From the NCBI RefSeq assembly GCF_006094275.1, contig NZ_CP034412.1, positions 248,001-312,000 on the forward strand: a stretch of DNA of 64,000 nucleotides. Reading direction: 5' to 3'. The notes beneath the pieces were generated by a model that saw only the letters and a program-made list of their open reading frames with translations, did not search any database and had not been told where the DNA came from. The stretch's first letter is position 1; each line of letters opens with the position of its first letter. Shown piece after piece: positions 50,758 to 64,000 of the stretch. This DNA is from Glutamicibacter creatinolyticus. Its GTDB lineage: Bacteria; Actinomycetota; Actinomycetes; Actinomycetales; Micrococcaceae. The translations under genes and the position numbers were made by a program.

Positions 50758-52395
50758 TTAGCTGGCCATCGCGTACTGGCGGGCCGGCTTGTCCAGGTAG
50801 CGCAGGTAGGCGTTGGAGGTCAGGAACGTCGGGAAGTCGTCGCGCAGCGAGCAGGCCTCGAAGATCTCCATGGCCTCCTCAAAGCGGTCACCTTCGAAAC
50901 GCTCAATCTTCTCCATGGTTTCCTCGGCCAGTTCGCTCACCCAATGCCGGGTGACCACTTCGCCCTCGTCGGTGATCGCCGACTGGTGGATCCACTGCCA
51001 CAGCTGGGAGCGGGAGATCTCCGCGGTGGAGGCATCCTCCACCAGGTTGCGGATGGTCACCGCGCCGTTGCCGCGCAGCCAGGACTCGATGTAGCGGATG
51101 CCGATCTCCACATTGTCCCGGATCCCGGTTTCGGTGATGCGCCCACCCAGCCCGGAAACGTTCAGCAGCTCGGAGGCCGAGGGCTGCACATCCTCACGCA
51201 GCCTGGAGACCTGGTTCGGGTTCTCGCCCAGCACGTTGTCGTAGGCCTTCATCGCCACCGGGACCAGGTCCGGGTGCGCCACCCAGGAGCCGTCAAAGCC
51301 CTCGGCCGCCTCACGGGACTTGTCCGCGTTGACCTCGGCGAAGCCCTGCTCGTTGATGCGCGGATCCTTGCGGTTGGGCACGAACGCGCTCATCCCGCCG
51401 ATCGCCAGCGCCCCGCGGCGGTGGCAGGCGCGCACCAGCTGCTCGGTGTAGGCCCGCATGAACGGGCTGGTCATGGTCACCGAGTCGCGGTCGGGCATCA
51501 CGAACCGGGCGCCGCGGGAACGGAAGTTCTTGATGATCGAGAAGATGTAGTCCCAGCGCCCGGCCACCAGGCCGGCCGAGTGGTCGCGCAGCTCGTAGAG
51601 GATCTCCTCCATCTCAAACGCGGCGGTGATCGTCTCGATCAGCACGGTGGCGCGGATGGTGCCCTGCTCGATGCCCAGCAGGTCCTGGGCCAGGATGAAC
51701 ACGTCGTTCCACAGCCGCGCCTCGGCGTGGTTTTCCAGCTTCGGCAGGGAGAAGTACGGGCCGCGCCCGGCGGCGATCAGGCGCTGGGCGTTGTGGAAGA
51801 AGTGCAGTCCGAAGTCCACGAACGCGCCGGCGATCGGCTTGCCGTCGATGAGCATGTTCTTCTCCGGCAGGTGCAGCCCACGGGGGCGAACCACGATGGT
51901 GGGCAGCTCGCGCAGCTCGGTGCTGCGCGGGGTGAGCACGGTGCCCTCCACGGTGGTGTAGTCAATGGTCCCGTCCAGCACCCGGCGCAGGTTCACCTGG
52001 TTCTTGATGACGTTCGCCCAGGTGGGGGAGCACTGGTCCTCCATGTCGGCCATCCACACCTTGGCGCCGGAGTTCAGTGCCCTGATGGTGGACTTGCGGT
52101 CGATGGGGCCGGCGATCTCCACGCGGCGGTCCTCCAGGCCCGGTGCGGCCGGGGCGACCTGCCAGCTGTTGTCTTCGCGGATATGGCGGGTGGAATCCAG
52201 GAACTTCGGGTCGTGGCCGTTGGCGATGCGGGCCCGGTTCAGCTGGCGGCGCTGCATCAGTTCCACCCGGCGGGATTCAAATGCCTGGTGCAGCTTGGCG
52301 ATGAAATCCAGTGCGTCGGCGGTCAGGATCTGTTCCTGGTAGCGCACCGGGGAAGCGGTGATGGACACGGTGTTCAAAGTGATTGGGGAGTTCAT
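50758..52395 (-). CDS. aceB: Malate synthase A
   Basis: 545 residues, the typical length of the short malate synthase A isoform. It condenses glyoxylate with acetyl-CoA to malate, completing the glyoxylate shunt. Visible marks are GPIDRKSTIRALNSGAKVWM followed by ADMEDQCSPTWAN, the RPRGLHLPEKN segment, ATVLIETITAAFEMEEILYE and GRWDYIFSIIKNF. It follows aceA on the same strand after 129 bp, with a hairpin between them. Confidence 0.97.
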   Translation of the reverse strand: MNSPITLNTVSITASPVRYQEQILTADALDFIAKLHQAFESRRVELMQRRQLNRARIANGHDPKFLDSTRHIREDNSWQVAPAAPGLEDRRVEIAGPIDRKSTIRALNSGAKVWMADMEDQCSPTWANVIKNQVNLRRVLDGTIDYTTVEGTVLTPRSTELRELPTIVVRPRGLHLPEKNMLIDGKPIAGAFVDFGLHFFHNAQRLIAAGRGPYFSLPKLENHAEARLWNDVFILAQDLLGIEQGTIRATVLIETITAAFEMEEILYELRDHSAGLVAGRWDYIFSIIKNFRSRGARFVMPDRDSVTMTSPFMRAYTEQLVRACHRRGALAIGGMSAFVPNRKDPRINEQGFAEVNADKSREAAEGFDGSWVAHPDLVPVAMKAYDNVLGENPNQVSRLREDVQPSASELLNVSGLGGRITETGIRDNVEIGIRYIESWLRGNGAVTIRNLVEDASTAEISRSQLWQWIHQSAITDEGEVVTRHWVSELAEETMEKIERFEGDRFEEAMEIFEACSLRDDFPTFLTSNAYLRYLDKPARQYAMAS

Positions 52396-52439
52396 GGCTG
52401 CATATCCTTAAAGACTTAATGGCTGGTGGGGCCCGTGGG

Positions 52440-52486
52440 CCCCGGCAACCGCTGACGACTGGTGCTGAGTTTGTCGGCTGCCGGGG
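52440..52486 (-). terminator. Hairpin between aceA and aceB
   Basis: The CCCCGGCAACCG arm pairs with CGGCTGCCGGGG (one mismatch) over a 23-nt loop in the aceA-aceB gap. It has no T tail and could attenuate rather than end transcription; this would give less malate synthase than isocitrate lyase. Confidence 0.5.
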
Positions 52487-52524
52487 CGTTTCAGACCCCA
52501 CCAAGGCTCGAAAAGTGAGCCAGT

Positions 52525-53826
52525 TTAGTGAAATTGGCCTTCTTCGGTGGATCCCACCAGGGCCAGGGTCGAAGCGTTCGGGTTCAGGGTGGTCGAGATG
52601 TCATCGAAGTATCCGGTGCCGACCTCACGCTGGTGCCGGGTGGCGGTGTAACCGCGGTCCTCGGCGGCGAACTCGCGCTCCTGCAGGTCGACGTAGGACT
52701 TCATGCCGTCCCGGGCGTAGCCGTGGGCCAGGTCGAACATCGAGTAGTTCAGGGCGTGGAAGCCGGCCAGGGTGATGAACTGGAAGCTGAAGCCCATGGC
52801 GCCCAGCTCGCGCTGGAACTTGGCGATGGTCGCGTCGTCCAGGTGCTTCTTCCAGTTGAACGACGGTGAGCAGTTGTAGGCCAGCATCTGATCCGGGAAC
52901 TCGGACTTGACAGCTTCGGCGAACCGACGGGCCACTTCCAGGTCGGGGGTGCCGGTTTCCATCCAGATCAGGTCCGAGTAGGGCGCGTAGGCCTTGGCCC
53001 GAGCGATGCACGGCTCGATGCCATTCTGCACCTTGTAGAAGCCTTCCGCGGTGCGCTCGCCGGTAATGAACTGCTGATCGCGTTCATCCACGTCCGAGGT
53101 GATCAGGGTGGCGGCCTCTGCATCGGTACGGGCGATGACCACGCTCGGGGTGCCGGCGACGTCCGCTGCCAGGCGGGCGGCGTTCAGGGTGCGGATGTGC
53201 TGCTGGGTGGGGATCAGGACCTTGCCGCCCAGGTGGCCGCACTTCTTCTCGCTGGCCAGCTGGTCTTCCCAGTGCACGCCTGAGGCGCCAGCCGTAATCA
53301 TCGACTTCATCAGTTCGTAGGCGTTCAGCGGCCCTCCGAAGCCGGCTTCGGCGTCGGCGACGATCGGAACCAGCCAGTCCTCGACGGTCTTGATGTCTTC
53401 GGAAAATTCGATCTGGTCGGCGCGCAACAGGGCATTGTTGATGCGACGCACCACCTGCGGCACCGAGTTGGCTGGGTACAGCGACTGGTCCGGGTAGGTG
53501 TGGCCCGAAAGGTTGGCATCCGCGGCGACCTGCCAGCCGGAAAGGTAGATGGCCCGCAGTCCGGCCTTGACCTGCTGGACCGCCTGGTTGCCGGTCAGGG
53601 CCCCCAGTGCGTTCGTGTAGCCGCCGGTCGGGGTTTCTTCAGTCAGCTGCTTCCACAGCTTTTCCGAACCGCGTTTGGCCAGTGTATGCTCCTCTTGGAC
53701 TCGGCCCTGGAGCTTGACGACCTCGGCTGCCGAGTAATCACGGGTGGTCCCCGCCCAGCGCGGGTTGTTTGCCCAGTCATTCTCAAGGGTTGCAATCCGG
53801 TTCTCGGTGGTGTTCTGATCGGTCAT
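52525..53826 (-). CDS. aceA: Isocitrate lyase
   Basis: 433 residues. It splits isocitrate to glyoxylate and succinate, allowing growth on acetate and other C2 sources. The signature [14 protein letters not shown] with the catalytic Cys, [20 protein letters not shown] with the metal-binding Asp, and [12 protein letters not shown] are intact. It begins with [18 protein letters not shown] like actinobacterial AceA proteins. A 515-bp region separates it from the next gene upstream. Confidence 0.98.
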
Positions 53827-55241: not shown

Positions 55242-56738
55242 GTGCGTGTGACGACTACCACATGGAGCGGGCAGGTTCCCGGTGAATCAGACGATTCCGA
55301 ACGTGCAGAGCTAGATTCCATCGCGCTTGGACGAAGGATTCGGCACCTTCGGAAGCAAAAGGGCTTCACCCTCGATGATGTTTCCGGACTCGTGGATACA
55401 GCACCCAGCCAGCTGTCGCTCATTGAAAACGGCAAACGGGAACCGAAGCTTTCACTTCTCAGAACTTTGGCCCGAGCCCTAGAAGTCGGTATCGATGACC
55501 TTCTTGGTACTGAGCCGCCCTCCAGAAGGGCAGCACTCGAAATCGAACTGGAGCGGGCTCAGCGAGGGCCCTTATATCAATCGTTGGGCCTGCCGACGGT
55601 CCGCGTTAGCAGCACGCTATCCATGGATGTGCTGGAATCCTTGGTGGGGCTGCAACGAGAACTGGAACGACGACTTAATGAACAAGCAGCGACACCGGAG
55701 GAGGCGCGGCGGGCGAACACCAAACTTCGTGAGGAAATGCGGCAACGAAACAACTACTTCCCGTCCTTAGAGGAAGAAGCCAGCTCGTTGCTGAAAGCAA
55801 TCGGCCAAACCGAGGGACCGCTGTCAACACATCAGATTACCGATATCGCAAGTCACCTGGGCTTTACACTCCACAATGTGTCTGACCTCCCTCACTCGAC
55901 ACGATCCGTAACCGACCTGAAAAACAAGCGCATTTACTTGACGCAGTCGTCTCGATCGGAGTTCAGCACACGTTCGGTCCTTCTGCAGGCTTTCGGACAT
56001 CAGGTACTTGGGCATCAAACGCCGAAGGACTACGCCGAATTTCTGAGACAACGAGTTTCTACCAATTACTTTGCTGCAGCGCTGATGATGCCCGAAAAAG
56101 CTACTGTCGATTTTCTGCAACGCGCAAAGGAAGCCCGCGAAATCGCAGTGGAAGATATCCGGGACGCTTTTGCTGTTTCCTACGAGACGGCAGCTCACCG
56201 TTTCACCAATCTTGCGACAGAACATCTGGGAATTCCGGTGCATTTCCAGAAGGTGCACGAGTCAGGAATCATTCACAAGGCGTATGAGAATGACGGCGTG
56301 AATTTTCCGCAGGATCACATTGGCGCGATCGAAGGACAGTCGGTGTGCCGGTACTGGACCAGCCGAGAAGTTTTTAACGTTCCAGACCAGTTCAGTGCAT
56401 TTAACCAATACACGGATACGATTGCAGGAACGTTCTGGTGCACGGCGCGTACCGAGCGTTCGACCAGCGGCCGATTCTCGCTGAGTATCGGGGTTCCATA
56501 TGTCCATGTCAAATGGTTTCGCGGCCGCGATACAACTGAGCGATCAACTTCAACCTGCCCAGACCCTTCCTGTTGTCGTAGGCCCCCTCACGATCTGCAG
56601 CAAGAATGGGCAGGGCAGGCATGGCCAAGCGCCCGAGCTCAGACTCATCTTTTGGCAGCGATGCCGCAGGGCGCATTCCCCGGTGTTGATGAAACAGAGG
56701 TTTACGCCTTCCTCCATCATCATGCGCAAATCAAGTGA
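55242..56738 (+). CDS. RamB-type XRE regulator of acetate metabolism
   Basis: 498 residues: an XRE helix-turn-helix (IRHLRKQKGFTLDDVSGLVD, then APSQLSLIENGKREPKLSLL), a long linker and a C-terminal ImmA/IrrE-like metallopeptidase-related and short-chain-fatty-acid-regulator domain, with CRYWTSREVFNVPD and CPDPSCC near the end. RamB in C. glutamicum represses aceA, aceB and pta-ack, and the neighbouring genes here fit. A leaderless start at GTG 55248 is equally possible, since TAGACT ends 7 nt before it. The gene is not adjacent to the aceA promoter (a HutD-like gene lies between). Confidence 0.85.
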   Translation: MRVTTTTWSGQVPGESDDSERAELDSIALGRRIRHLRKQKGFTLDDVSGLVDTAPSQLSLIENGKREPKLSLLRTLARALEVGIDDLLGTEPPSRRAALEIELERAQRGPLYQSLGLPTVRVSSTLSMDVLESLVGLQRELERRLNEQAATPEEARRANTKLREEMRQRNNYFPSLEEEASSLLKAIGQTEGPLSTHQITDIASHLGFTLHNVSDLPHSTRSVTDLKNKRIYLTQSSRSEFSTRSVLLQAFGHQVLGHQTPKDYAEFLRQRVSTNYFAAALMMPEKATVDFLQRAKEAREIAVEDIRDAFAVSYETAAHRFTNLATEHLGIPVHFQKVHESGIIHKAYENDGVNFPQDHIGAIEGQSVCRYWTSREVFNVPDQFSAFNQYTDTIAGTFWCTARTERSTSGRFSLSIGVPYVHVKWFRGRDTTERSTSTCPDPSCCRRPPHDLQQEWAGQAWPSARAQTHLLAAMPQGAFPGVDETEVYAFLHHHAQIK

Positions 56739-57688: not shown

Positions 57689-59197
57689 ATGACGAATAAC
57701 TCTCAGAAACCTGCTCCTGAAGTGTATGAGCAGATTCTTGCCCCAATCTCGATCAGTTCCGAGGTCGGAGAGCCGCTTTACCGGCAGTTGCGTCGAGCTC
57801 TAGAGCATCAGATCCGCGTGGGCGGCTTTGCTCCAGACGCTCCTCTGCCCTCTTCCAGGGAGCTTTCACGCGAGCTCGGGTTGTCACGAAACACAGTAAA
57901 TGCGGCCTTCCAGGAGTTGCTGGCCTGTGGAATCATAGAATCCCACGCTCGACGCGGCTATTTCATCAATGCCCAGATCTTAGACGCCTCTGCGCCTTTG
58001 CCCCACAACGCGGTTGTTGGCCCCACGGCCATCGACTGGAGTCAGCACATTCGTCCGCGCGTAGGCGCAGACAGGCCCGAAATCACCAAGGTAAGCAATT
58101 GGCGAGAACACCGCTATCCGTTTGTCGCCGGGCAGGTTGACGAACGCGATTTCCCGCGTTTGGCATGGGCTCGTGCATTGCGGGATGCACTGGATCCACC
58201 ACACTTGCATTACTCCTTACGCGACTCTGTCGATGAGGATGACCCTTACCTAATTGATGTTCTGTGCCGCAGAGTGCTACCGTCCCGCGGGATTGTTGCC
58301 GAGCCCAAGAACGTACTTATAACCGCGGGTTCGCAACAAGGACTAGATCTTCTGGCCCAGACGATCATGGATAGCCGCTCAACAGTTGCCGTGGAGGATC
58401 CTGGCTACGTGGACGCTCGTCATACTTTCGCACGTACTGGAGCTGAACTGCGCCCTCTGGACGTAGATGAACATGGGCTGATCCCGCCAGAATCATTTGC
58501 TGGTTTGGACGCACTCTACTTGACCCCAAGCCACCACAGTCCAACGAATGTGACACTCAGCGTTAGTCGTCGCAGAACTATTTTGGATGCGACACTTGCA
58601 AGCGGAACCTTGGTAATCGAGGACGACTACGACAGCGAGTTTCGGTATCGGGGAAAACCCACTCCGGCGTTGAAAGCTCTACCTAATTCGGCGCACGTCG
58701 TTTATCTGGGATCCTTCACCAAGTTTCTCGCTCCGGGGCTTCGCATGGGGTACATAGTTGGTGACCCCGTGATCATTGCTGAGTTGAGAAGCCAACGGCG
58801 ATACCGCATCCGCCATATCGCCGGGCATCCCCAGCGCGCCATGGCGATGCTGATTGACTCTGGGCAGTACCATCGAACAATTTCGCGGCGGCGCACGCAA
58901 CTCCAGCGGAAATGGCGCTTGCTTGTCGAAGCACTTGAAAAGTACCTCCCCTGGGACGTGTCGGCTCCACCCGGAGGAGTCAGCGTGTGGATTAGGGGGC
59001 CGCAGGAATTGGATTGCATCGAACTTCAAGCGGCGTGCCTGAGGGAAGGAGTCGTCATCGAACGCGGTGACGTGTTCTTTGACGATCCGTCTACTCACCG
59101 GAATTTTTTCAGACTCGGGTTTGCCGCAATCGACGCAGCGGCCATAGAACCGGGGATAAGACGACTGGCGAAAATCGTTCACGGCCTCGGCCTATAG
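57689..59197 (+). CDS. MocR/TauR-type regulator (GntR DNA-binding domain fused to aminotransferase fold)
   Basis: 502 residues. The N-terminal GntR winged helix is at about 30-95 (PLYRQLRRALEHQIRVGGFA, then LPSSRELSRELGLSRNTVNA). The rest is a class I aminotransferase-like domain with NVLITAGSQQGLDLLAQ, VIEDDYDSEFRYRG and the PLP Lys in YLGSFTKFLAPGLRMGY. MocR proteins sense PLP adducts of amino compounds and control adjacent genes; TauR of Rhodobacter, which activates taurine genes, belongs here. Its neighbours are alanine racemase and a Tpa-like aminotransferase, which suits such a role. Confidence 0.9.
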   Translation: MTNNSQKPAPEVYEQILAPISISSEVGEPLYRQLRRALEHQIRVGGFAPDAPLPSSRELSRELGLSRNTVNAAFQELLACGIIESHARRGYFINAQILDASAPLPHNAVVGPTAIDWSQHIRPRVGADRPEITKVSNWREHRYPFVAGQVDERDFPRLAWARALRDALDPPHLHYSLRDSVDEDDPYLIDVLCRRVLPSRGIVAEPKNVLITAGSQQGLDLLAQTIMDSRSTVAVEDPGYVDARHTFARTGAELRPLDVDEHGLIPPESFAGLDALYLTPSHHSPTNVTLSVSRRRTILDATLASGTLVIEDDYDSEFRYRGKPTPALKALPNSAHVVYLGSFTKFLAPGLRMGYIVGDPVIIAELRSQRRYRIRHIAGHPQRAMAMLIDSGQYHRTISRRRTQLQRKWRLLVEALEKYLPWDVSAPPGGVSVWIRGPQELDCIELQAACLREGVVIERGDVFFDDPSTHRNFFRLGFAAIDAAAIEPGIRRLAKIVHGLGL

Positions 59198-59307
59198 ACC
59201 TTCTTACCGCTGGTTCTTGGAAAACCAGTGCGATCTGGGTCTAGGGCCGCGAGTCTGCTTCGGCGACAGTAGTTGGGAAGGTACCCGAGTGTGTAAAGGA
59301 GCACGCT

Positions 59308-60498
59308 ATGACCGCCCAACAAGAAGCCGCGTTTGCGGCTAAACCCGAGGCCCAATATGGGCGTGGACAGCGAAATGCCGATATCGATTTGGCTGCCATC
59401 AGCAAAAACGTTTCTCTTCTGAGCCAGTTTGCCGCGCAATCCAAGGTGATGGCCGTGCTAAAAGCCGATGCCTATGGTCATGGGTTGATTCCCTCGGCCG
59501 AGGCTGCGTTGCGGGGTGGCGCGGATTTCCTGGGGACTGCCGTTCTGGAGGAGGCGTTCGCCCTGCGAGACGCGGGTATCGAGGCGCCGGTTTTCGCATG
59601 GCTGGCGGCACCAGGCGCAGATTTTGTCACCGCACTCTCCAAGCAGATCGATGTAGCGGCTTACAACATCGAACAGCTAGCAGAAATCATCAAAGCCTCC
59701 CGAGAAGCCGGAGCCACTGCCCGTATTCACCTGAAAATCGACACCGGCATGTGGCGGGGTGGCGCCGACGCAGCGTCATGGCCTCAATTATGCGCAGCCG
59801 CCCGCCGTGCAGAAGCTAACGGTGTTGTCCGCATCGTCGGGGTATGGTCCCATCTGGCTTGTGCCGATGAACCCGGGCATCCTTCCATCGACGCTCAGCT
59901 TTCCAACTTTCGTCGAGCAATAGCCGTCGCACGAGATCTGGGGCTCAGACCAGAGCTTTGCCATATTGCAAATTCTGCCGCAACCCTCTCCCGCCCCGAT
60001 GCCCATTTCGACATGGTGCGCACCGGCCTAGCCGTCTATGGCATCAACCCATTGCCCCGTGAAGCCCGAACTTCACGGATGCAACTACAGCCCGCCATGA
60101 GATTGAGCGCGAAGATCGTGAACGTGAAGCCAGCGCCTGCTGGAGCACCTGTCAGCTACGGGGCGACCGAGAAAACCGCTCGAGCCACGCGGCTGGCTGT
60201 CGTGCCTCTTGGGTACGCAGATGGTGTGGTTCGGAGTGCCAGTTCAAGGGGACCTGTGCGCATCGGGGACGAGCACTTCCGCGTTATAGGGCGCATTTGC
60301 ATGGACCAGTTCGTGGTCGACGTGGGCGACTACGCGATCCAGGCGGGAGACGAAGCCGTTCTCTTCGGTTCTGCACAAGATGGCGAACCAACAGTTGAGC
60401 ATTGGGCGGAAGCCGCAGGAACCATACCCTATGAGATCCTCACGGGCATTGGCGCAAGAGTCCCACGAAACTATCGAGATTCAACATCTGGTACCTAA
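59308..60498 (+). CDS. Alanine racemase
   Basis: 396 residues. The PLP-binding KADAYGHG puts Lys52 in the active site. Other family marks are HLKIDTGMWRGGA, WSHLACADEPGHPSIDAQL, ANSAATLSRPDAHFDMVRTG and GYADGVVRSASSRGPVRIGD. It interconverts L- and D-alanine. GGAGCACGCT precedes the ATG. Its position between the regulator and the aminotransferase suggests it is a catabolic paralogue for alanine recycling rather than the cell-wall enzyme; that is inference. Confidence 0.9.
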   Translation: MTAQQEAAFAAKPEAQYGRGQRNADIDLAAISKNVSLLSQFAAQSKVMAVLKADAYGHGLIPSAEAALRGGADFLGTAVLEEAFALRDAGIEAPVFAWLAAPGADFVTALSKQIDVAAYNIEQLAEIIKASREAGATARIHLKIDTGMWRGGADAASWPQLCAAARRAEANGVVRIVGVWSHLACADEPGHPSIDAQLSNFRRAIAVARDLGLRPELCHIANSAATLSRPDAHFDMVRTGLAVYGINPLPREARTSRMQLQPAMRLSAKIVNVKPAPAGAPVSYGATEKTARATRLAVVPLGYADGVVRSASSRGPVRIGDEHFRVIGRICMDQFVVDVGDYAIQAGDEAVLFGSAQDGEPTVEHWAEAAGTIPYEILTGIGARVPRNYRDSTSGT

Positions 60499-60577
60499 AA
60501 ACTGGCTCCATTGTGGCTCTGGGAAAGGACCCAGCGACAAGGCAGAGTGATATTCACCACATCAAATCTTGGTAGTT

Positions 60578-60592
60578 GTTAGTGAATCTAAC
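60578..60592. promoter_or_regulatory. Dyads upstream of the aminotransferase gene
   Basis: GTTAG-N5-CTAAC at 60578-60592 is a perfect dyad. A second, GTGA-N3-TCAC, lies at 60547-60557. Both are in the 130-bp gap between alr and the aminotransferase, 37-80 bp before its start. They are candidates for the MocR-type regulator's binding site; not tested. Confidence 0.35.
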
Positions 60593-60628
60593 GCTGGCAG
60601 GATCAGATCTTCATCAAGGAGGAAAGCA

Positions 60629-62023
60629 ATGACCGCTTCAGACATCCGCAATCGTGCCCAGCAGCACCTCTACCCGCACTTCACTGCCGGCCAGGTGTGG
60701 AATGACAAGAATCTGCCGATTATCGTCAAGGGCGAAGGAAGCTACTTATTCGACGAGTCCGGGGAACGCTACCTCGATGGCTTGGCAGGGCTTTTCTGCG
60801 CGAACATCGGTCATGGTCGACAGGATATTCCGAAGGCCGCCTATGAGCAGATGTCCGAACTGGCCTACTGGACGAACTGGGGTTCAGCTCACCCTGCAGC
60901 GGTGGAGGCAGCGACTCGTATTGCCAACTTGGCTCCGGGTGACCTGGATGTAACGTTCTTCGTCAACTCCGGCTCTGAGGCCGTGGAATCGGCGATCAAG
61001 TTCGCGCGCCAGTACCACCGCAGCCAGGGGCAGCCCGAGCGAACCAAGATCATTGCTCGCAACATGGCCTACCACGGCACCACCCTCGGTGCGCTGGCAG
61101 TAACGGGAATCCCGGCCTACAAGGAACCTTTCGGCAACTTGATGCCCGGTGTGTTCCATGTTCCAAATACTCTGGGAGAAACGATTCCAGAAGGCGGAAG
61201 CGCCGCAGACCTGCCCTCGGTTCAAGCGATTCGGCAGGTCATTGAGGAGCAGGGCGGTCACACGATCGCGGCCTTGTTCGCCGAACCAGTTCAGAACTCC
61301 CGCGGTGCCTTGGTGCCCCCGGCCGGCTACTGGCAGGAACTGCGAAAGATCTGTGATGAGCATGGAATCCTGCTGGTGGCGGACGAAGTCATCACGGGCT
61401 TCGGTCGACTGGGCGAGTGGTTCGGCAGCATCAAGTTTGATGTGGTCCCTGACATGATTACCTTTGCAAAGGGATCCACAAGTGGCTATGCGCCACTCGG
61501 GGGAGTGATCATTCGCAAGCCGCTGGCCGATGGCATGCTCGCCAGTCCGCAGGCGGGGATCTTCACACATGGCGCCACCTGGGGCGGTCACCCCGTGTCG
61601 ACTGCCGTGGCCGTGGCCAACCTGGATGCTCTGAAGGAAGAGAACATTACAGGCAACGTTCGTAGCCTCGAGCCTTACTTCCAGAATGGACTGAACCAGC
61701 TGGTCGATGCCCATTCGAGCATCCGAGAATACCGAGGTGCGGGATTCTTCTATGCAATCGAACTGATGGGTGACCGGAACACTGGACGAGAACTGACTGA
61801 GGAAGAATCCAAGCACTTGCTGACCCAGGTGATGCCGAAGGCGATGCGGGAAGTCAATCTCATTACTCGCCCGGACAACCGGGGCGCCACCATGCTGGTG
61901 CTCTCCCCGCCGCTGGTCGCCGACCAGGACGTTCTGGATGACTTGCTGGGCAAGGTGGATCATGTGATGAGCGCAGCCGATCAGTACTTGCGCACTAACG
62001 TGCAATCGCTGGCAGGCGTCTAA
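60629..62023 (+). CDS. Class III aminotransferase, probable taurine:pyruvate aminotransferase
   Basis: 464 residues. PLP Lys281 lies in MITFAKGSTSGYAPLGG and Asp252 in LLVADEVITGFGRLG. The N-terminus YLDGLAGLFCANIGHGRQDI resembles taurine:pyruvate (Tpa) and omega-aminotransferases. In Tpa the products are sulfoacetaldehyde and L-alanine. Supporting context: a TauR-like regulator and alanine racemase upstream, phosphotransacetylase downstream. Other omega-amino substrates (beta-alanine, GABA, putrescine) are not excluded. The ATG at 60629 has a perfect AAGGAGG 7 nt before it. Confidence 0.78.
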   Translation: MTASDIRNRAQQHLYPHFTAGQVWNDKNLPIIVKGEGSYLFDESGERYLDGLAGLFCANIGHGRQDIPKAAYEQMSELAYWTNWGSAHPAAVEAATRIANLAPGDLDVTFFVNSGSEAVESAIKFARQYHRSQGQPERTKIIARNMAYHGTTLGALAVTGIPAYKEPFGNLMPGVFHVPNTLGETIPEGGSAADLPSVQAIRQVIEEQGGHTIAALFAEPVQNSRGALVPPAGYWQELRKICDEHGILLVADEVITGFGRLGEWFGSIKFDVVPDMITFAKGSTSGYAPLGGVIIRKPLADGMLASPQAGIFTHGATWGGHPVSTAVAVANLDALKEENITGNVRSLEPYFQNGLNQLVDAHSSIREYRGAGFFYAIELMGDRNTGRELTEEESKHLLTQVMPKAMREVNLITRPDNRGATMLVLSPPLVADQDVLDDLLGKVDHVMSAADQYLRTNVQSLAGV

Positions 62024-62050
62024 GCGCGGGACCGCAGGAAGGACCATTCC

Positions 62051-63037
62051 ATGGCCAGCACCATTGTGGATCTCGCCGGCATTGACCAGATGCTTCTACA
62101 GCGTTTCGAACAAGCTCTTGCCTACCGGAACATGCATCGCATCATCTTGCCGGAAGGACAAGATGAACGGATACAGCGCGCTGCGGATATCTTGAGCGGA
62201 CTGGGTGCCCAACCAGTCTTGCTTCAGGCGCCCGCCGCAGCGGTCGGGAACTGTTCGATACGCGAACTGCGCACCTCATCGGTTGAGGAGCACCTGCGTT
62301 CCTCGCTGGAACCACGCGGTGCAGAAGCGGTGGACCAGGCCTTGCAAGACCCGGTGGCGCTGGCCATGGCGAAAGTCGCATGTGGAGAAGGAGAAGCTGT
62401 TGTGGCGGGGGCAACCCTGCCCACGGCAGACATCATGCGTTCCGCATTTCGTGTCGTCGGACCGGCAGAAAAAGGGGCGACCGTATCGTCCTGCTTTCTG
62501 ATGCGCTTGACGTCTGGACAGTATCTTGCCTACGGCGATTGCGCGGTGGTACCCGACCCCGAGGTCGAACAACTGGCTCGGATCGCCATCGATACTGCCG
62601 GTACGTTTCAAGCAATAACAGGCACAACACCTCGGGTTGCAATGCTTTCTTTCTCCACAGCCGGAAGCGCCGAGCATCCGAGTATTAGGACGGTACGTGA
62701 AGCCACGAAATTGGTACGCCAATGGCGCCCCAGCCTATGCGTAGATGGTGAACTTCAGTTTGATGCGGCAGCGGATTCCGCTGTCGCAGCCGCTAAAGCA
62801 CCGCAATCTGAAGTAGCCGGAAGAGCCAACGTGTTTATATTCCCGAACCTGGCGGCCGGGAACATCGGATATAAAATCACTCAGCGGTTAGCCGAAGCGC
62901 AGGCCTATGGGCCGATCCTTCAGGGCCTGGCCGCACCGGTCAATGACTTGTCCCGTGGGGCGAGCGTCTCAGACATCGTAAATGTCTCCCTTATCAGCTT
63001 GGTGCAGTCTCTGCCTTCACCGCCCGCCGAGGCGTGA
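62051..63037 (+). CDS. pta: Phosphate acetyltransferase (short form)
   Basis: 328 residues, the catalytic PTA_PTB domain without the N-terminal regulatory part of long Pta proteins. It converts acetyl phosphate to acetyl-CoA. Marks include MHRIILPEGQDERIQRAADI, AGATLPTADIMRSAFRVVGP, AMLSFSTAGSAEHPSI and a C-terminal IFPNLAAGNIGYKITQRLA. In taurine dissimilation Xsc makes acetyl phosphate from sulfoacetaldehyde and Pta takes it to acetyl-CoA. There is no ackA next to it, which is unlike the usual pta-ackA pair and like the taurine cluster type. It starts 27 bp after the aminotransferase stop. Confidence 0.9.
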   Translation: MASTIVDLAGIDQMLLQRFEQALAYRNMHRIILPEGQDERIQRAADILSGLGAQPVLLQAPAAAVGNCSIRELRTSSVEEHLRSSLEPRGAEAVDQALQDPVALAMAKVACGEGEAVVAGATLPTADIMRSAFRVVGPAEKGATVSSCFLMRLTSGQYLAYGDCAVVPDPEVEQLARIAIDTAGTFQAITGTTPRVAMLSFSTAGSAEHPSIRTVREATKLVRQWRPSLCVDGELQFDAAADSAVAAAKAPQSEVAGRANVFIFPNLAAGNIGYKITQRLAEAQAYGPILQGLAAPVNDLSRGASVSDIVNVSLISLVQSLPSPPAEA

Positions 63038-63090
63038 AGGAGTAAGAGTCAGTCCAAAGAAGTGCAGCACCACTTGAGATCGAGGTAAAA

Positions 63091-64000
63091 ATGAAGGCGA
63101 CTACTACAAGCAACACCAGCCAACCGGCGAGACCTTCCGGAATCGCTATGGAATCCGCGTCAGGGGGAGAACAGCCCGAACGCCTAGCCAAAACACTTAA
63201 GGCCCGGTGGGTCTGGGCAATTGCTCTGGGATCTGCCGTCGGATGGGGCGCGTTTATTTTGCCCACTGACTGGCTCGCGATCGGCGGACCCGTCGGAGCT
63301 TTGAGCGGCTTCATGATCGGTGGAGCGCTGATGATTCTTATCGCCGTCAGCTATGGCTTCCTGATCAAGTCCTTCCCGGTTTCCGGTGGTGAGCTAGCAT
63401 TCGCGCTTGTCGGTTTCGGACGTACACACGCGTTCTTCTGCGGCTGGTACCTGACCCTGGGGTATACCTGTATTGTGGCCCTGAACGCTTCAGCCATGGC
63501 CTTGCTTTTCCGCAAGCTCATGCCGGACGTAGTGCAGCAGGGATACCTCTACACCGTGGCCGGATGGGATGTGTACATCGTCGAGGTAGCCATCTCGTTG
63601 ACTGTGCTGATCGTCTTCGCCCTGCTCAACATTCGAGGCACAGCGCTGTCGGGCAGAATTCAATTCATCGCCTGCGTCATCATGCTGATAGCGGTGGCGT
63701 GCATCCTGGTCGGCGTCCTGGCCAGTCCACAGGCAGTACTGAGCAACGCTACCCCCGCGTTTCCCGCTGAAGTGAATCCAGTTGCCGCTATTGCCGCGAT
63801 CGTCGCCATCGCGCCTTGGGCATTTATCGGATTTGATAATGTGCCTCAGGCGGCCGAAGAGTTCGATTTTCCTCCGGCCAAAGCCATGCGACTGATCGTG
63901 CTGGCTCTGTTGGCTGCTGCATTGCTGTACTGTGCAATGATTGCGGCAGTTGCTTTCAGTGCACCTTGGGAGGCCTTGGCAAATGGGACTTCGGCCTGGG
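63091..64000 (+). CDS. APC-superfamily permease (partial, cut by right edge)
   Basis: About 303 residues visible, starting MKATTTSNTSQPARPSGIAM after GAGGTAAAA. The N-terminal 35 residues are cytoplasmic; at least eight hydrophobic segments follow (for example ARWVWAIALGSAVGWGAFIL, LSGFMIGGALMILIAVSYGF, HAFFCGWYLTLGYTCIV). The GSAVGWGAF motif and IAPWAFIGFDNVPQAAEEF identify an APC transporter. It follows pta after 53 bp on the same strand, so it probably imports the substrate of the pathway. Taurine import by an APC permease rather than an ABC or TRAP system would be notable. Confidence 0.88.
   Translation, partial: MKATTTSNTSQPARPSGIAMESASGGEQPERLAKTLKARWVWAIALGSAVGWGAFILPTDWLAIGGPVGALSGFMIGGALMILIAVSYGFLIKSFPVSGGELAFALVGFGRTHAFFCGWYLTLGYTCIVALNASAMALLFRKLMPDVVQQGYLYTVAGWDVYIVEVAISLTVLIVFALLNIRGTALSGRIQFIACVIMLIAVACILVGVLASPQAVLSNATPAFPAEVNPVAAIAAIVAIAPWAFIGFDNVPQAAEEFDFPPAKAMRLIVLALLAAALLYCAMIAAVAFSAPWEALANGTSAW

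Follow-up and report, generated by a model that had tools for sequence, protein, structure and literature searches.

Pairs of a MoxR-type AAA+ ATPase and a von Willebrand factor A (VWA) protein are described as activators of single enzymes. NorQD and CbbQO are couples of this kind, each activating one enzyme (extracts of PMC9976466, PMC13036017 and PMC5437159). NorQD is a metal-insertion couple (PMC13036017, in extract), while the action of CbbQO involves the C-terminus of Rubisco (PMC5437159, in extract). On the side of taurine metabolism, the TauR regulons of Actinobacteria are listed as containing tauE, tpa, pta, ald, gabP, thiG and pdxS (extracts of PMC5320631). Here we analysed a stretch of 64,000 nucleotides, called the window, which is C1:248001-312000 of the one-contig, 3.31 Mb genome of Glutamicibacter creatinolyticus. 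Judged from gene content, its right end appears to be the left half of an island for taurine dissimilation, and a CobS/CobT-like gene pair stands between this half and xsc. This pair is probably a dedicated MoxR-AAA+/VWA machine for one clade of Xsc, the thiamine diphosphate (ThDP) enzyme of the pathway, rather than a cobaltochelatase. The CobS-like ring would hydrolyse ATP, the CobT-like VWA protein would hold the client, and the two would jointly remodel Xsc so that its cofactor is loaded or renewed, much as CbbQO acts on Rubisco or NorQD on nitric oxide reductase. The genes, their families, their co-occurrence and the lack of CobN in this genome are observed; we infer that Xsc is the client and that remodelling has this effect.

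The sequence-only reading, made from the letters of the window, had predicted a Tpa-Xsc-Pta route from the last five genes, stated that xsc was not in view and proposed a look beyond position 64000. The gene is there. The genome holds one Xsc above the curated cut-off, and its family match (C1:317075-318820, or 69075-70820 in window numbering) starts 5.1 kb past the window end. The island runs mocR-alr-tpa-pta-permease on the plus strand, then cobT-cobS-iclR on the minus strand, then xsc on the plus strand, with iclR divergent from xsc. The genes beyond the window are given below in positions of the stretch L009, to which 56000 is added to obtain window positions.

L009:9253-10977, minus strand, CobT-like VWA protein (TIGR01651, 234 bits, cut-off 759)
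L009:10990-11979, minus strand, CobS-like AAA+ ATPase (TIGR01650, 447 bits, cut-off 558.6)
L009:11973-12830, minus strand, IclR regulator (PF01614, 123 bits)
L009:12943-14835, plus strand, Xsc, the ThDP enzyme (TIGR03457, 1043.9 bits, cut-off 676.4)

The closest named match of this Xsc was that of Glutamicibacter soli (94%; records very near the source's own may be omitted). A promoter scan beside xsc gave nothing above chance.

With the source Xsc as bait, the best 80 of at least 585 candidate relatives were taken as named xsc loci (L052 and L058 share one contig, and some stretches are cut by contig ends). CobS and CobT were both found near xsc in 69 of the 80, in Actinobacteria, Betaproteobacteria and Gammaproteobacteria, and one more locus had CobT alone. 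The distance from CobS to Xsc had a median of 825 bases and a maximum of 8.4 kb. Eleven loci had no CobS in the stretch, and seven of these carry CobS elsewhere in the genome; the four in which no CobS was found are the metagenome-assembled genomes L050, L059 and L099 and Burkholderia L101, whose contig ends just after xsc. The pair was seen in three strand and side arrangements relative to xsc (48, 16 and 5 of the 69 loci). Among the same 69 loci, Tpa was found in 16 and a DAO-family FAD enzyme, which we take to be TauY-like, in 29, with neither seen in 24 and both in none. The pair thus persists across arrangements and whichever enzyme makes the sulfoacetaldehyde, which suggests that Xsc is the common partner, though Xsc was the bait. 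A different client within the island, such as Pta, the upstream dehydrogenase or a sulfite-handling protein, is very unlikely. Pta homologues (above 35% identity) do occur in 53 of the 69 pair-bearing loci, and TauE-like exporters in 34 of the 80; every pair-bearing locus has Xsc, again as the bait, and no other enzyme is shared by all of them.

The same association was followed in whole genomes. Of 197 genomes of Micrococcaceae, 18 had xsc and 19 had CobS, and in all 18 CobS and CobT stood beside xsc. In the 19th CobS-bearing genome xsc is split over two frames beside the pair (L156, G105:C224); the split may be a real pseudogene or an assembly fault. Among 398 Pseudomonadota genomes, CobS was present in 27 of 27 with xsc versus 109 of 371 without it. 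Seven of these 27 have an Xsc of the source type (79-81% identical), with CobS within about 1 kb in five and 22-30 kb away on the same contig in two. The other 20 carry an alpha-type Xsc (46-49% identical) and have no CobS in the stretch fetched around xsc; since Alphaproteobacteria seem to carry CobS generally, those 20 genomes tell little about the association. Among 296 Actinomycetota genomes, xsc was found in five, and CobS at E<=1e-60 was found only in the source genome; of the other four, three have a deep Xsc type (50-53% identical) and the fourth, G898, has an Xsc at 76%.

In a quick Xsc tree of 94 rows (taken from 126 distinct rows, with near-copies dropped by hand), the source clade of 64 rows (Shimodaira-Hasegawa approximate likelihood ratio test, SH-aLRT, 99) stood apart from 19 alpha-type and 3 deep actinobacterial rows, with an unsure root because of long outgroup branches. 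For part of the genomes we infer the label alpha-type from a Caulobacter control and a J-domain-like gene before CobS. Within the source clade the pair was linked to xsc in 51 rows, lay elsewhere in the genome in 8 and was not found in 5. A first CobS tree of 69 rows did not separate the groups fully: it required 2 changes, with one alpha-type row placed among the Xsc-linked rows. Once L170 and L171, two long alpha-type rows, had been removed, the Xsc-linked CobS proteins (53 rows) were split from 14 alpha-type CobS by a branch of SH-aLRT 100.

Several observations weigh against a machine dedicated to Xsc. Firstly, linkage of neighbours can reflect regulation or joint transfer, and Xsc was the bait. 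In the mirror-tree comparison, Xsc distances correlated with those of CobS at 0.59 and of CobT at 0.64; IclR and Pta gave higher values, 0.79 and 0.84, so that no special signal of co-evolution can be claimed for the pair. Secondly, G898 (L175, G898:C12) is 98% complete, its Xsc is 76% identical to that of the source, and no CobS was found in it at E<=1e-60. Neither the alpha-type Xsc nor the three deep actinobacterial Xsc have a linked pair. Thirdly, Xsc has been purified and assayed alone, which means that the pair is not needed for every turnover. Finally, in a search of 41 genomes selected for holding the pair, 21 had a match to CobN, the core protein of the cobaltochelatase, and 15 of these were above the cut-off.

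The last count bears on a more ordinary explanation, in which the cluster is a usual taurine cluster and the pair is a cobaltochelatase, or a passenger transferred together with xsc, with no role in Xsc function. The solved CobS (413 bits) and CobT (217 bits) are the closest solved relatives of the pair by sequence, and the CobS and CobT models match it, though below their curated cut-offs as listed above. In addition, members of the source Xsc clade have a mean identity of about 84% over 69 loci, with Actinobacteria and Proteobacteria intermixed, so the block has probably been transferred. However, 20 of the 41 pair-bearing genomes gave no CobN match at E<=1e-30; these include the source, in which no CobN candidate was found, as well as Vibrio splendidus, Shewanella, Cobetia, Halomonas and Brevibacterium. 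A cobaltochelatase identity of the pair is rejected for the source genome on this absence. The pair also differs from CobNST in that the Xsc-linked CobS proteins form a separate branch, and from CobT in that the stretch before its VWA domain is less acidic (median highest acidic fraction 0.30 in 93 rows versus 0.50 in 10 rows). Nor would one expect a passenger to remain close to xsc through three arrangements, or to be found elsewhere in the genome in 7 of the 11 cases where the stretch lacked the pair. We consider the explanation unlikely. The Caulobacter control genome had CobS above the cut-off and no CobN match. CobS lacking CobN is thus not confined to xsc loci, and the alphaproteobacterial CobS and CobT may serve a further purpose apart from cobalamin synthesis.

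As a MoxR/VWA couple the pair has the expected features: a MoxR-type AAA+ protein carrying Walker motifs is encoded next to a VWA protein with the residues of the metal-ion-dependent adhesion site (MIDAS). Walker A is conserved in every one of the 94 Xsc-linked CobS rows. The VWA metal-site residues D364, S366, S368 and D487 do not vary across the 42 aligned CobT-like rows (from 67 CobT-like open reading frames; a set pre-filtered for the string 'GSM' was not used for this count). The model of the G. soli CobT-like protein had a predicted local distance difference test score (pLDDT) of 86.7, with residues 216-257 disordered. Its best listed fold match was the VWA domain of NorD in NorQD complexes (E 6e-10; TM-score by target length 0.60-0.66, with under half of the model covered). 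Solved CobT chains were absent among the 50 listed fold matches, so NorD is not claimed to be nearer than CobT.

This fold match is the likeness to the nitric oxide reductase activator NorQ/NorD, which differs in its client and in being a known metal-insertion couple. The likeness to the Rubisco activase CbbQ/CbbO lies in a MoxR AAA+ and VWA pair encoded beside one metabolic enzyme. Again the client is another, the CobS-like protein is only weakly similar to CbbQ (36 bits), and action on Xsc is a proposal. The NorD match, together with the metal insertion by NorQD (PMC13036017, in extract), could favour another version of the proposal. In this mode the pair would help to assemble new Xsc or to load it with Mg-ThDP, acting a single time, as NorQD does when it inserts iron, and not in repair. 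The existence of alpha-type Xsc without a linked pair stands against such a mode. Moreover, the binding of Mg-ThDP by ThDP enzymes generally needs no helper, and this also counts against one-time loading, which we regard as possible, though not favoured.

A more specific proposal, bolder than remodelling of Xsc as such, is that the pair is an activase which renews a sulfite-damaged cofactor. We put it forward tentatively, as a hypothesis that is rather doubtful in its full form. Sulfite cleaves thiamine (extracts of PMC8839250). Xsc makes sulfite beside its own ThDP, and cleavage of the cofactor would inactivate the enzyme. The VWA-guided AAA+ ring would then grip a near-invariant tail of Xsc (...KYxD[YF]V) and open the active site, so that spoiled cofactor could leave and fresh ThDP enter, at a cost that would be paid by thiazole-making genes (thiG, thiO) found near xsc in several lineages. 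Among 105 complete rows of the source clade, the C-terminus of Xsc was DYV in 101, DFV in three and EYT in one, whereas all 20 complete alpha-type rows and three deep rows had other ends (near-copies counted in both sets). The EYT end is that of the well-assembled genome G898, in which no CobS was found; DYV is retained in the three metagenome-assembled genomes that lack CobS. In a model of modest confidence (mean pLDDT 75.9), the Xsc tail (562-587) was below pLDDT 50 and poorly ordered. The C-terminus of Rubisco is involved in the action of CbbQO (PMC5437159, in extract), and the tail of the source Xsc clade is strongly conserved. This tail could equally be an active-site lid.

The supply side of the proposal rests on gene placements. 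In five betaproteobacterial loci a ThiG gene stands about 1.5 kb or less from xsc, and ThiO-type genes were found in six Halomonadaceae xsc loci, next to xsc in two of them. Three of these six ThiO-type proteins were run against the ThiO model, and 3 of 3 were above the cut-off.

L040, 11843-12652, ThiG thiazole synthase
L083, 13123-13968, ThiG thiazole synthase
L093, 13204-14058, ThiG thiazole synthase
L077, 7801-8628, ThiG thiazole synthase
L095, 13057-14055, ThiG thiazole synthase
L034, 11859-13067, ThiO glycine oxidase (Halomonadaceae), directly after xsc
L068, 1896-3161, ThiO glycine oxidase (Halomonadaceae), directly after xsc
L091, 18907-20001, ThiO glycine oxidase (Halomonadaceae)

In 21 alpha-type stretches no ThiG was found, and the ThiO query gave one match at 23% identity. 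The placements of thiG and thiO may represent two events only. In addition, sulfite splits thiamine at its bridge and the thiazole stays whole, so that extra thiazole synthesis is not exactly what the chemistry calls for.

Within the window, the five genes named by the sequence-only reading are all there, on the plus strand and in the order it gave, with gaps of 110, 70, 27 and 53 bases.

57689-59197, plus strand, MocR-type regulator (GntR plus aminotransferase fold), probably TauR-like (PdxR is the NCBIfam model passed, 348 bits, cut-off 320)
59308-60498, plus strand, alanine racemase alr, one of two genome copies (TIGR00492, 311 bits, cut-off 168)
60569-62023, plus strand, class-III aminotransferase, probable Tpa, taurine:pyruvate aminotransferase (PRK06541, 601 bits, cut-off 574)
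62051-63037, plus strand, short phosphate acetyltransferase Pta (PRK09653, 313.8 bits, cut-off 310; PF01515, 307 bits)
63091-64000, plus strand, APC-family permease, its last 644 bases beyond the window end (PF13520, 131.6 bits, cut-off 27)

Pta reached 291.5 bits against TIGR00651, below the cut-off of 311.2. The MocR architecture is present by Pfam, PdxR being the NCBIfam model that passed its cut-off, and the regulator is 45-77% identical to MocR proteins of other actinobacterial xsc loci. Permeases 60-90% identical to that of the island occur in 17 further xsc stretches from Actinobacteria, in which some species are represented twice.

These genes support the reading that this half of the island serves the actinobacterial Tpa-Xsc-Pta route, as judged from sequence. 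The TauR-like MocR protein would regulate and the APC permease would import taurine. Tpa would move the amino group of taurine to pyruvate to give sulfoacetaldehyde and L-alanine, Xsc would convert sulfoacetaldehyde to acetyl phosphate and sulfite, and Pta would turn acetyl phosphate into acetyl-CoA. Neither of the refuting conditions set by the sequence-only reading was borne out, whether a genome without Xsc or a firm grouping of the aminotransferase with enzymes of another substrate. In a quick tree the aminotransferase fell into one clade (SH-aLRT 99) with 21 further aminotransferases of xsc loci, including that of Rhodococcus opacus, apart from seven class-III paralogues of its own genome and from alpha-type rows. 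The rows were picked by xsc linkage (near-copies L115 and L125 and one of eight own class-III paralogues were omitted) and characterised Tpa was not included as such, so the tree shows the unity of the clade and is not proof of substrate.

That the aminotransferase acts on another amine (beta-alanine, GABA or homotaurine), so that the left half would be no taurine operon in spite of the nearby xsc, is very unlikely in our judgement. The NCBIfam model that it matches is a generic one, and none of the 53 solved structures listed as matches bears the name of a taurine enzyme; against this, the protein falls in the clade of xsc-linked aminotransferases, and a pta and a like type of permease stand beside the aminotransferase gene in several genera.

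The sequence-only reading had further taken the racemase to replace alanine dehydrogenase. It is true that alr adjoins tpa and that the cluster has no ald. However, the genome holds one ald above the cut-off, at C1:413546-414652, 101 kb past the window end, so that alr as a full substitute for alanine dehydrogenase is weakened. The other alr copy is at C1:2305714. Among the loci examined, alr stands beside tpa in three genomes (the source, G. soli and G190), and an ald-type gene lies within 13 other actinobacterial xsc stretches. A further enzyme of possible relevance lies past xsc.

L010:4218-5546, plus strand, 9.4 kb past xsc, D-amino acid dehydrogenase-like FAD enzyme (PRK00711, 207.6 bits, cut-off 383)

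Close homologues of this protein (58-68%) were found in 16 stretches (some species twice), with no overlap with those that have an ald-type gene. Alr and the D-amino acid dehydrogenase-like enzyme may plausibly form a second route from alanine to pyruvate beside ald. Alternatively, this DadA-like FAD protein could be a glycine oxidase of the ThiO kind; its scores against the two models both lie below cut-off.

Malate synthase and isocitrate lyase (window 50758-53826, minus strand, and 55242-56738, plus strand) adjoin the taurine island. With them stands an HTH/IrrE-domain regulator, presumably RamB-like. Growth on taurine-derived acetyl-CoA would need the glyoxylate shunt.

The island shares with the TauR-regulon system a MocR/TauR-type regulator, tpa, xsc, pta and a GabP/APC permease (extracts of PMC5320631). 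The view that an APC permease is unusual for such a cluster should be softened, as a GabP permease is already described in actinobacterial TauR regulons in the same extracts. Unlike that system, the island has alr in the cluster and ald elsewhere, and xsc in a separate run with its own IclR regulator. It also has the CobS/CobT-like pair, while the main text of PMC5320631, as extracted, has no mention of cob, IclR, MoxR or AAA.

The part of the island inside the window belongs to a type of pathway already described, with the racemase as a local variant; the pair between the halves is the new part. No paper joining 'xsc' and 'cobS' was found in the open-access literature. Much work on Xsc is published in subscription journals, where a prior mention is possible. 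Xsc is a main bacterial enzyme that frees sulfite from taurine and other C2 sulfonates. If the proposal is true, annotations of CobS and CobT as vitamin B12 synthesis would be wrong in these genomes and the B12 pathway would be predicted too often. Xsc would then stand beside Rubisco and nitric oxide reductase among the enzymes served by a MoxR/VWA motor of their own.

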